Below are positions 19,779-31,905 of a DNA stretch of 64,000 nucleotides, one piece after another (position 1 is the stretch's first letter; the number at the start of each line of letters is the position of its first letter). The DNA comes from Thermoplasmatales archaeon. GTDB lineage: Archaea; Thermoplasmatota; Thermoplasmata; Thermoplasmatales; Thermoplasmataceae. A program made the position numbers and the translations under genes. The stretch spans positions 62,001 through 126,000 of the forward strand of contig JAJSLM010000005.1 of the NCBI GenBank assembly GCA_026127925.1. Direction: 5' to 3'. The notes under the pieces are model-generated. The model did not search any database, was not told the origin of the DNA, and was given only the letters and a program-made list of their open reading frames with translations.

Positions 19779-20858
19779 TCAGGAGATCATGTCCATGCCA
19801 TGATCGCTTTCAACTTCTCCAGCCATCTCGGGATAAACACTTGTAGTTAAGCCCGTGGCGACGACGAGAACCTGAACCGTTCCACTCTCCACTCTGTTAT
19901 CCACGGTTGTTCCCCATATGATCCTTGTATTTTTGCCAACTCTCTTACGTATCATATCGGAAGCATTGCTTGTTTCCTCAAGCTGGAGGTCCTTTCCACC
20001 AATAACGTTAACGATGACACCTGAAGCTTTAGACATGTCAAGCTGAAGGAATGGAGATGCTAACGCTTTCTGGACCGCGTCGCTCACCCTTGTCCCAGGT
20101 TCTCCCATGCCCTGCCCCATGCCTATCATAGCAAGGCCAGTGTCTTTCATTACTGTTCTGAGATCGTTAAAGTCAAGGTTAATCAGACCGGGTTTAGTAA
20201 TTAAGTCTGATATACCTGTTATTGCCCTAACCATAACCTCGTCGGCGAATCTAAAAGCCTTTTCCATTGGCATATCGGGGACAAGTTCAACAAGCTTGTC
20301 ATTTGGTATGAGTATAACGCAATCTGATGCTCTAATAAGTTTTCTCAGGCCCCACATCGCGTTCTTTAGCCTCACAGAACCCTCTGAAGTAAAGGGCATG
20401 GAAACTACTGAGATTGTCAAAGATCCACCTTCTTTGGCTCGGGAGGCGATATAATATGCTGATCCAGTTCCAGTTCCACCGCCAAGGCCTGCAGCCACAA
20501 ATGCAATGTCGACGCCAGATGTGTATTTTACGATCTCCTGATCGGATTCCTTTGCGGCTTGTTCACCGACCTTTGGATCGGCGCCTGAACCAAGACCCCT
20601 GGTGAGATTCTTTCCGAGCAGTACTTTATGATTCGCCTTTATTTTGAGCAAATGCGCAGCGTCAGTATTGCAAGCAATGAGAGTTACACCAACTACACCC
20701 TCTTTCATGAGTCGGTTGATCGTATTCGATCCGGCGCCACCCGCTCCGAATACTCTTATCTTTACCTTTAATTTATCTAAATATTCCTGTAATTCTTCTT
20801 CGGAAGTACCTATCTTTTCCTCTTCTTCTTCAAAATCAGACATGCTTGGTGTTACCAT
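19779..20858 (-). CDS. ftsZ: cell division GTPase FtsZ
   Basis: A 359-residue tubulin-superfamily GTPase that forms the division ring. An acidic leader of about 30 residues precedes the core IRVFGAGGAGSNTINRL. The tubulin signature GGGTGTG is at about residues 126-132, and the catalytic T7 loop is NLDFNDLRTVM near residue 220. The C-terminal domain runs to VLVVATGL, followed by a short tail without an obvious bacterial-type FtsA-binding peptide. All nucleotide-binding loops look intact, in contrast to the FtsZ-like protein at 29805-30584. It is monocistronic, with the transketolase operon downstream on the same strand. Confidence 0.96.
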   Translation of the reverse strand: MVTPSMSDFEEEEEKIGTSEEELQEYLDKLKVKIRVFGAGGAGSNTINRLMKEGVVGVTLIACNTDAAHLLKIKANHKVLLGKNLTRGLGSGADPKVGEQAAKESDQEIVKYTSGVDIAFVAAGLGGGTGTGSAYYIASRAKEGGSLTISVVSMPFTSEGSVRLKNAMWGLRKLIRASDCVILIPNDKLVELVPDMPMEKAFRFADEVMVRAITGISDLITKPGLINLDFNDLRTVMKDTGLAMIGMGQGMGEPGTRVSDAVQKALASPFLQLDMSKASGVIVNVIGGKDLQLEETSNASDMIRKRVGKNTRIIWGTTVDNRVESGTVQVLVVATGLTTSVYPEMAGEVESDHGMDMIS

Positions 20859-29804: not shown

Positions 29805-30584
29805 TCAATATGTTAATTTGTAAACGTTTATGCTTGATCGATTAGCAAGTTTCGCAGAGAAAACACCTACATCGCTTGCTATTCGTTCATTTATCTTGCT
29901 CAACGTTCTCGTGTTATAAGGATTTCCGGAATCTAGTCCAAGTTTCTCAATCACTTTGTCATTATCGTAGACTACGGTTCCTTTAGATACATTTTTCAAG
30001 ACTCTTAAGGCCTTGCGTGCCCTCTGTTTCTTATTTCCATCTATTTCGAAAGGTACAACTGCAACGTCCAGATGTGGGAGGCCAACCTCGTTAAGGAGCG
30101 ATGCAAAAGATATGTGCATTGCCTGGGAAAATGTTCCACCGAGGGCGCTCATCAATATGTAGGAATTGCTCTTTGGAAACGTATTGAATATTTCTTTTGA
30201 CATTAGGTACCAGTTCTTTCGTAGGTCTATAAATTGCATACTTATTGATCTGGAATCGATGAAGCCTTCCGAATTGTCTACATGTTCCCTTGTTCTCCTG
30301 TATTCGAATTCCTCCTTGGACATGAGGGAAACCCTGACTTCTTCTGGTCCTTCTAGCGATATTTCAGAGAATCTTTCTGAGAATTTTTCCACGGAATCCT
30401 TCTCCTTCTTCGACTGAACTGAAATATAACTCGTCTTACGAGTCTGAAGTGGCTTTACACTCGCTAAAATCCTGTATCCTGTTGAACCGAATGCTATGAC
30501 GATGTTGTCCAAACGTTCGTTATAATATTTTTTGACTTTTTGTCCAACAATTCCTTTCATGTACTGTTCTTCTACCGCTTCCAT
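29805..30584 (-). CDS. divergent FtsZ/tubulin-superfamily protein with degenerate nucleotide loops
   Basis: A 259-residue protein whose order of motifs matches FtsZ although the loops are altered. IVIAFGSTGYRILASV (residues 28-43) stands where FtsZ has IRVFGAGGAGSNTINRL. SALGGTFSQAMHISFASLL (146-164) stands at the GGGTGTG tubulin signature. VAVVPFEIDGNKKQRARKALRVLKN and VVYDNDKVIEKLG match the strand-helix-strand of FtsZ up to its PNDKL. INERIASDVGVFSAKL fits the next helix. The T7 catalytic loop and the C-terminal domain are missing. GTP hydrolysis is unlikely; it may cap, regulate or co-assemble with FtsZ (inference). Its ATG is 21 nt downstream of the RHH regulator's stop. Confidence 0.7.
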   Translation of the reverse strand: MEAVEEQYMKGIVGQKVKKYYNERLDNIVIAFGSTGYRILASVKPLQTRKTSYISVQSKKEKDSVEKFSERFSEISLEGPEEVRVSLMSKEEFEYRRTREHVDNSEGFIDSRSISMQFIDLRKNWYLMSKEIFNTFPKSNSYILMSALGGTFSQAMHISFASLLNEVGLPHLDVAVVPFEIDGNKKQRARKALRVLKNVSKGTVVYDNDKVIEKLGLDSGNPYNTRTLSKINERIASDVGVFSAKLANRSSINVYKLTY

Positions 30585-30605
30585 TTTTTTAACTCCTTCT
30601 CTATA

Positions 30606-31022
30606 TTAGTATCTCCCTTTGGCCGAGTCATATTCACGTTTATCCGTGGTCGTCTCAAATTTCCTAAGATCGTTCATTATAGAGTTGTAACTCTTGATTC
30701 TCTGCTCTATAACCCGACGAAGCACGCCCGAATCTATCGCAGTTTTCAGCAATTCCTCTATTACCTCATCTCTTGTCTTAAAGAATCCTCTCTCGATGAC
30801 TGACGATATTATATTGTCGAGATTCCTGCTTAGTTTTACACCGCTATTCTGCTCTTCAACTACCCCTACTCTTGTCCTAGCAATGTAATCCATGGCAGAG
30901 TGCCTGATGAATTCCGACCTGCTTGCAAATCTAGGATTAACTTCCAGGAATTCGTCTATCTCTGAAAGATCATCCTCCGATATCCGTAGTGTGAGTTTTG
31001 TATCTTTTGATTCTGTTACCAC
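30606..31022 (-). CDS. double ribbon-helix-helix transcriptional regulator
   Basis: A 138-residue regulator with two ribbon-helix-helix units. The first is KLTLRISEDDLSEIDEFLEVNPRFASRSEFIRHSAMDYI (about 8-47). The second is VKLSRNLDNIISSVIERGFFKTRDEVIEELLKTAI (about 62-96), followed by a basic helical tail. A two-unit chain can form a pseudo-dimer on one operator. It is the first gene of a pair with the FtsZ-like protein. Dyad repeats at 31196-31213 and 31219-31241, and a matching half-site TGTATGTA at 31070-31077 next to its own TATA element, are candidate binding sites. Short RHH proteins control ftsZ in halophilic archaea (CdrS), a useful comparison. Confidence 0.85.
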   Translation of the reverse strand: MVTESKDTKLTLRISEDDLSEIDEFLEVNPRFASRSEFIRHSAMDYIARTRVGVVEEQNSGVKLSRNLDNIISSVIERGFFKTRDEVIEELLKTAIDSGVLRRVIEQRIKSYNSIMNDLRKFETTTDKREYDSAKGRY

Positions 31023-31195: not shown

Positions 31196-31213
31196 CTTAC
31201 ATATGTATGTAAG
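31196..31213. promoter_or_regulatory. 18-bp inverted repeat, candidate RHH operator
   Basis: CTTACATA and TATGTAAG are perfect 8-bp complementary arms separated by TG. The repeat lies in the divergent region between the RHH regulator and aIF2 beta, immediately upstream of the aIF2 beta promoter. The symmetry is seen directly; the link to the RHH protein is inferred from position. Confidence 0.5.
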
Positions 31214-31218
31214 TATTT

Positions 31219-31241
31219 TACATATTAAATTTAAATATGTA
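31219..31241. promoter_or_regulatory. second inverted repeat overlapping the aIF2 beta TATA element
   Basis: TACATATT and AATATGTA form perfect 8-bp arms around a 7-nt A/T core that contains the likely TATA box of the aIF2 beta gene (TTTAAATA, 31230-31237). The arms share TACATA with the neighbouring dyad at 31196-31213, so a repressor could occupy both. The low complexity of the sequence is a caution. Confidence 0.45.
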
Positions 31242-31275: not shown

Positions 31276-31905
31276 ATGGGCATAGACAGTTATGAAGCGC
31301 TTTTGAAGAGAAGCGAGAACGTGTTATCCAAATCCAACTTGAGCCAGCAAAGATTACAGGTTCCAGAACCAGATGTGATCCAAGAGGGAAAGGTAACAAT
31401 AGTTAGAAATTTCGCCGATATTGCAGACATGATAAACAGGGACCCAAGGCACATAGCAAAATTCTTGATGACCGAATTTGGAATCGGAGTTACAATAGAT
31501 GGAAGAAGACTGATCATTAACAGAAAGATATCACCTGATCAGATTTCAAAGAAGATCCAAAAATACATGGATTCCTTCGTGAAGTGCTATGAGTGCGGTT
31601 CCCCGGATACAGAAATTCAAAAGGTAGGGAGGACTTATCTGCTTGTGTGCAAAGCCTGTGGTGCACAGCACCCAATTAGAGTTGCCACCGAAATGCAGAA
31701 AGAGGAGAATACAGTCGAGGAGGGGAAGACCTACACTGTAGAAATAACGAAGATAGGAAATTCTGGGGAAGGCCGTGCATTTCTAAGAGGTGTAAACATA
31801 GTCGTACCTGGAGCGAAACGAAGAGAAACTGTTAAGGTAGTTATAAAAAGGATAAGAAACAATACTGCAATTGCAGAAATTGTGGAGCGCGAACAGCAGT
31901 CCTGA
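31276..31905 (+). CDS. translation initiation factor aIF2 beta with C-terminal TRAM domain
   Basis: A 209-residue initiation factor subunit. Residues about 1-135 are the aIF2 beta/eIF5 fold, with the core NRDPRHIAKFLMTEFGIGVTIDGRRLII and the zinc ribbon CYECGSPDTEIQKVGRTYLLVCKACGA. Residues about 150-205 are an added TRAM domain (VEEGKTYTVEITKIGNSGEGRAFLRGVNIVVPGAKRRETVKVVIKRI), an RNA-binding beta barrel. The beta-TRAM fusion is known from some euryarchaea. The leader is about 40 nt from the TATA element. A PIN nuclease and RibK genes follow on the same strand. Confidence 0.93.
   Translation: MGIDSYEALLKRSENVLSKSNLSQQRLQVPEPDVIQEGKVTIVRNFADIADMINRDPRHIAKFLMTEFGIGVTIDGRRLIINRKISPDQISKKIQKYMDSFVKCYECGSPDTEIQKVGRTYLLVCKACGAQHPIRVATEMQKEENTVEEGKTYTVEITKIGNSGEGRAFLRGVNIVVPGAKRRETVKVVIKRIRNNTAIAEIVEREQQS

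Follow-up and report, generated by a model that had tools for sequence, protein, structure and literature searches.

A CdrS-like double ribbon-helix-helix gene and a truncated FtsZ-like gene form a conserved pair in the class Thermoplasmata

The two-gene locus and its products

The window, by which we mean the whole 64,000-nucleotide stretch of DNA analysed here, carries two adjacent genes for a ribbon-helix-helix (RHH) regulator and for a short FtsZ-like protein, referred to below as mini-FtsZ. Both are read from the minus strand and separated by 21 bp, and an AAGGAG ribosome-binding site precedes the start of the second ORF, that of mini-FtsZ. The ORFs occupy exactly the interval, 29805-31022, in which a sequence-only reading of this DNA had placed a two-gene operon. 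The features of the locus, and the canonical FtsZ gene elsewhere in the window, are as follows.

29805..30584, minus strand: mini-FtsZ, 259 aa; FtsZ N-terminal domain S1-S6 plus H7, from profile, fold and motifs
30606..31022, minus strand: CdrS-like RHH regulator of 138 aa, starting with GTG; a long C-terminal helix follows its two RHH units
31197..31212, no strand: candidate operator, palindrome TTACATATGTATGTAA, in the 253-bp intergenic region between the divergent RHH and aIF2-beta genes
31276..31905, plus strand: aIF2-beta with a TRAM-like tail, the divergent neighbour, identified from sequence features
19779..20858, minus strand: canonical FtsZ, 359 aa, outside the operon; TIGR00065 372 bits

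The TIGR00065 score agrees with the earlier description of the gene at 19779-20858 as an intact ftsZ. The window corresponds to C5:62001-126000 of the 1.73-Mb assembly; a second canonical FtsZ is encoded on another contig (C11) and SepF on a third (C2). The closest named relatives by DNA, nine named MAGs having been matched, are uncultured Thermoplasmata MAGs.

Taken alone, the 259-aa protein matches Pfam Tubulin at 20 bits (E 9e-4) and TIGR00065 at 18 bits, the first below cut-off and the second below the curated cut-off, and its top PDB sequence match is FtsZ 2r6r (E 0.0017). A family profile built from the window protein and 25 relatives matches FtsZ in hhalign with 98% probability and E 6e-14 over 162 columns. 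The AlphaFold model (pLDDT 78, pTM 0.73) has the strand and helix order of FtsZ with a long terminal H7, and the best PDB matches listed for it by Foldseek are FtsZ chains and one CetZ2 (best E 1e-7, TM ~0.5). The resemblance to FtsZ claimed from the sequence is thus borne out: structure prediction, Foldseek and profiles, each of which might have pointed to another fold or family, all gave FtsZ. It has to be asked whether the protein is an unrelated Rossmann-type protein that resembles FtsZ by chance, as the low single-sequence scores would allow. The family profile and the fold matches speak against this, as do outgroup members of the same RHH operon that carry full FtsZ GTPase motifs; we consider such a coincidence exceedingly improbable and set it aside.

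The motifs claimed earlier also fall where they should. GGTFSQA (residues 149-155) aligns with the T4 loop of FtsZ (GGGTGTG) and NDK (residues 208-210) with T6. The chain stops at H7, and our motif table agrees with the earlier claim that T7 and the C-terminal domain are missing; PF12327, the FtsZ C-terminal domain, gave no match at E<=10 in the window protein and none in the relatives scanned. At the fold level the protein belongs to the FtsZ/tubulin superfamily, having the Rossmann N-terminal domain (S1-S6) and H7, while of the features of the FtsZ functional family (the GGGTGTG T4 loop, T7 NxDxxD and PF12327) it has none. On profiles and predicted structure it is confirmed as a degenerate FtsZ-superfamily member with altered GTP loops. 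The most conserved residues in the window's family include G33, G36, G149, Q154, H157, P178, D207 and N232, and the nucleotide-pocket face is the better conserved one (shift test 0.01, for a pocket-face residue set of our own choice).

The companion was said to contain two RHH units, and two do appear. Separate profile models match residues 6-51 and 62-109, and the predicted structure has helices at 16-28 and 35-51 and at 66-77 and 84-98, with a low-confidence break between the units at residues 57-60, followed by a 36-residue helix at 100-135. The protein therefore has the strand-helix-helix unit of the RHH superfamily twice, by profile and by model. The Foldseek list for the model is headed by RHH proteins (Arc, ParD), although for a chain of this size no E-value reaches significance. 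Haloarchaeal CdrS had been named as a parallel, and this holds in that CdrS is the best NCBIfam model for the RHH companions of outgroup mini-FtsZs (E 4.7e-7 at L059, 3.8e-4 at L116). Against the CdrS equivalog NF058555, whose cut-off is 100 bits, the window regulator scores 17.5 bits, two mini-FtsZ-linked relatives 20.4 and 29.7, and an RHH protein beside a full-length FtsZ-like gene 44.3.

The palindrome TTACATATGTATGTAA sits ~64 bp before aIF2-beta, at a distance of 175 bp from the start of the RHH gene. It is the sole perfect copy in the window genome, and a 14-bp core is found at the same place in a sister species; a further inverted half-site lies beside it at 31218-31224. As it is confined to the genus, we reject it as a general operator, and as a sign of autoregulation it is only suggestive. 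The same element would be the candidate site if the pair served DNA partition or tethering, with the RHH protein as a ParR- or TubR-like binder of a centromere or other site and mini-FtsZ as an adaptor to division or membrane. A DNA-binding protein beside a tubulin-family protein follows the logic of TubRZ and ParRM, and the RHH protein has a weak match (E 8e-4) to a plasmid ParR model. This match is far below cut-off, however, the site is not repeated perfectly anywhere else in the genome and mini-FtsZ has no filament-forming parts, so that we consider a partition role improbable.

Occurrence of the pair and its relation to canonical FtsZ

To see how widely the pair occurs, 203 Thermoplasmata genomes were searched with the mini-FtsZ family profile and an RHH profile, and the coordinates were compared. 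A short FtsZ-like ORF is present in at least 100 of the 203 genomes, with a length among the paired ones of 192-312 aa (median 271), the shortest, near 192 aa, being possibly clipped by a contig end. At least 87 of 100 such ORFs are preceded by an RHH gene that lies on the same strand and no more than 1 kb away. Among the unpaired 13, 11 had no RHH gene among the matches listed; at one of the remaining two (L121), reading the DNA revealed an RHH gene immediately upstream. No mini-FtsZ was found for family f11, and none was clearly seen in sampled genomes outside Thermoplasmata, among the matches listed. The genome-neighbourhood search proposed in the earlier reading thus recovers the pair throughout much of the class. 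What that reading had missed is that the window protein is no oddity of one genome but belongs to a class-wide family, at whose degenerate end it stands. In the open-access literature we found no published description of an RHH gene with a truncated FtsZ in Thermoplasmata.

Within the window's family aIF2-beta is a constant neighbour of the pair, accompanied by pyrB/pyrI in most loci read; in other lineages the neighbours are a dCTP-deaminase-like gene, or leuS and NAD kinase. This variation argues against any significance of the neighbours themselves. That the RHH gene and mini-FtsZ stay together while their neighbours change suggests a functional unit of two genes, though the linkage could also be mere co-expression. 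Gene order, small size and an RHH companion are also what one would see in a ParD-type toxin-antitoxin pair, for which there is a weak TIGR02606 match, with the RHH protein as antitoxin and mini-FtsZ as a toxin poisoning the division ring. Mobile toxin-antitoxin loci differ, however, from a pair that is vertically conserved over a class, has fixed synteny within families and is near-universal in several of them, and mini-FtsZ matches no toxin family. We regard this explanation as very unlikely and set it aside.

The FtsZ C-terminal domain is undetectable in 56 of the 203 genomes, comprising every one of the 12 genomes sampled from genera g10, g18 and g19, together with 44 of 45 in family f16. 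Mini-FtsZ is nevertheless present in 57 of 61 f16 genomes. A longer, divergent FtsZ-family paralog that goes unmatched by PF12327 is often present in them (L155-L160), so the absence of FtsZ in f16 means the absence of canonical FtsZ. The pair accordingly does not depend on canonical FtsZ, which suggests that the firm partner of mini-FtsZ is the RHH regulator and not FtsZ. Many of the f16 genomes (G128-G172) are also without detectable SepF.

SepF is missing as well from g10, g18 and g19. This fits the reported absence of FtsZ, SepF and PRC from Picrophilus, Acidiplasma and Ferroplasma (PMC10936438), to which the three genera presumably correspond. The RHH gene of these FtsZ-less genera has kept its place beside aIF2-beta and is followed by a conserved ORF of 157-179 aa, as at these loci:

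L092, 1752-2291: short ORF after the RHH gene
L093, 1692-2207: short ORF after the RHH gene
L094, 2374-2847: short ORF after the RHH gene
L101, 2584-3081: short ORF after the RHH gene
L102, 2758-3249: short ORF after the RHH gene

Compared with the mini-FtsZ family in hhalign, these ORFs give E 0.004 over 47 columns at a probability of 8%, and profile comparison with FtsZ gives no similarity. With so weak a profile similarity, homology to mini-FtsZ is argued mainly from position, and the ORF is possibly a mini-FtsZ remnant. If it is, the second half of the domain vanished along with FtsZ. Mini-FtsZ also decays in the FtsZ-bearing genera g3 and g13, which makes the correlation between FtsZ loss and mini-FtsZ shrinkage a loose one. 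At one g3 locus (L095, 2449-3163), in a genus that has kept both FtsZs, mini-FtsZ consists of two overlapping frames of 155 and 111 aa; either a frameshift or an assembly error would account for this.

These distributions bear on the suggestion of the earlier reading that the protein is a regulatory or structural partner of the division ring, of which a more specific form is that mini-FtsZ acts directly on the FtsZ ring as a capper or assembly inhibitor. Its top face would dock onto the exposed T7 face at a filament end and block growth, its dose being set by the RHH regulator. Mini-FtsZ retains the top interface only, and this is the conserved face; in the window's family, two FtsZs and SepF generally accompany a full-length mini-FtsZ, while the genera that have lost FtsZ and SepF retain only the much shortened partner ORF; and ARC3 provides a precedent, its degenerate FtsZ domain having an effect on FtsZ. 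One loss event may, however, underlie all three FtsZ-less genera, in which case the correlation is not independent evidence. The persistence of mini-FtsZ in f16 without canonical FtsZ and its decay in FtsZ-bearing g3 and g13 also count against a ring effector, and we consider direct action on the ring possible but doubtful.

Origin and proposed function

The loop and motif states of mini-FtsZs suggest an order of events. The GGGTGTG-type loop is intact in all 13 outgroup mini-FtsZs and in none of 24 members of the window's family, most of which have GGxFxQxxH instead, while T7 is found in none of 37 mini-FtsZs and in 14 of 16 full-length FtsZs. Three outgroup mini-FtsZs scanned with curated models are FtsZ GTPase domains, with Tubulin E-values down to 3e-39; that of L059 scores 136 bits against Tubulin and 197 bits against TIGR00065 over model positions 16-209 of 353. 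The match of outgroup mini-FtsZs to the FtsZ model ends at position 200-209 of 353, before T7. Since the loop is intact in the outgroup and T7 is gone from all mini-FtsZs, we conclude that truncation preceded the loss of the GTP loop, which falls on a very long stem.

In our tree mini-FtsZs are split from full-length FtsZs with an SH-aLRT of ~83. Branches are long, the stem of the window's family (f1) alone amounting to 3.4 changes per column, and taken together these values make a single origin of the mini-FtsZs likely but do not prove it. At four loci of the same order, in sister families (L103, L104, L106 and L109), a double RHH gene also lies directly upstream of a full-length FtsZ-like gene. 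The FtsZs there are 343-353 aa long, have the C-terminal part and form a clade of their own (SH-aLRT 96). Such an operon is a plausible source architecture for the mini-FtsZ pair. Some genomes of these sister families have 5-7 FtsZ-family genes.

Each FtsZ subunit contributes its T7 loop to the GTP site of the adjoining subunit, which is thereby completed, and both domains and the T7 loop are thought to be required for function. Lacking T7 and the C-terminal domain, mini-FtsZ would be expected neither to form a canonical head-to-tail filament nor to complete GTP hydrolysis. We propose that it acts as a protein partner to the RHH regulator, in an operon descended from a CdrS/FtsZ2-like ancestor, a reading to which we give a probability of about 0.5. 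Mini-FtsZ would be a co-regulator or anti-regulator that contacts the RHH protein, perhaps through the C-terminal helix of the latter, and the operon an autoregulated transcription switch; the ancestral RHH-FtsZ operon was probably CdrS/FtsZ2-like and lost the C-terminal half of its FtsZ. Where the loop is intact, as it is in most lineages, the switch may sense GTP through it, whereas the binding of nucleotide has probably been abandoned in the window's family. As the pocket face is conserved there although the GTP loop is lost, it probably still contacts something; selection on this face, with its new signature GGxFxQxxH, may reflect another ligand or a protein, FtsZ being one candidate. We favour this switch over its strongest competitor, capping of FtsZ filament ends, because the RHH regulator is the sole partner with independent support. 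A bolder and rather speculative version is that the pair is an ancient DNA-bound switch independent of division, in which an RHH protein and a non-polymerising FtsZ domain acted as a GTP-reading transcription factor and later did without GTP.

If the proposed partnership with the RHH regulator is true, a domain of a cytoskeletal GTPase has been co-opted throughout an archaeal class to help control transcription, as a regulatory subunit whose nucleotide domain is nearly always beside a DNA-binding regulator and outlives canonical FtsZ. The natural series of full-length FtsZ with RHH, intact-loop mini-FtsZ, degenerate mini-FtsZ and residual ORF may indicate which part of FtsZ serves regulation. 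The question is testable, as the family likely includes cultured members (Thermoplasma, Cuniculiplasma and gut methanogens). Matches to the FtsZ domain alone may also be miscounted as FtsZ in surveys.

Comparison with known systems

ARC3 of plant chloroplast division has an FtsZ-like domain with a degenerate GTPase and regulates FtsZ, but it is a multidomain eukaryotic protein without an RHH partner, and for mini-FtsZ an action on FtsZ is a candidate role. In the TubRZC and ParMRC partition systems a DNA-binding protein stands beside a cytoskeletal NTPase, and TubZ and ParM polymerise; mini-FtsZ differs in lacking T7 and the C-terminal domain, and no centromere-like repeats were noticed. FtsZl1 and FtsZl2 (Makarova & Koonin 2010, PMC2875224) are likewise divergent FtsZ-superfamily proteins, and in FtsZl1 neither an S6-T7 region nor the FtsZ C-terminal domain can be recognised. 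The founder of FtsZl1 has 1051 aa, and the family has coiled coil and helical domains after an N-terminal FtsZ-like domain, with neighbours of vWA, GTPase and OmpA type and no RHH gene (PMC2875224). The window protein has 259 aa, and neither the coiled coil and helical domain nor vWA neighbours appear in the loci read; T6 and H7 are recognisable in it, with nothing after H7.

The closest likenesses are operons of an RHH gene and an FtsZ gene. Those at L103, L104, L106 and L109, of the same order, have the double RHH gene directly upstream of a full-length FtsZ-like gene. In the haloarchaeal cdrS-ftsZ2 operon (Darnell et al. 2020, PMC7439475) a small RHH gene is immediately followed by an FtsZ-family gene, and that paper reports co-occurrence of the two in all archaeal clades except DPANN. 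CdrS has 55 aa and one RHH unit, and its partner FtsZ2 is a full-length protein that includes both the GTPase and the C-terminal domain, whereas the window regulator is a doubled RHH and its FtsZ the nucleotide domain only; in the place of an adjacent downstream full-length FtsZ2 stands mini-FtsZ. No truncated FtsZ is described for cdrS-ftsZ2 in the portions of PMC7439475 drawn on here, and the cdrS-ftsZ2 pairs counted in that paper may include some from Thermoplasmata whose truncation went unremarked. We class the operon in the window as a variant of the cdrS-ftsZ2 kind that may work in a similar way.
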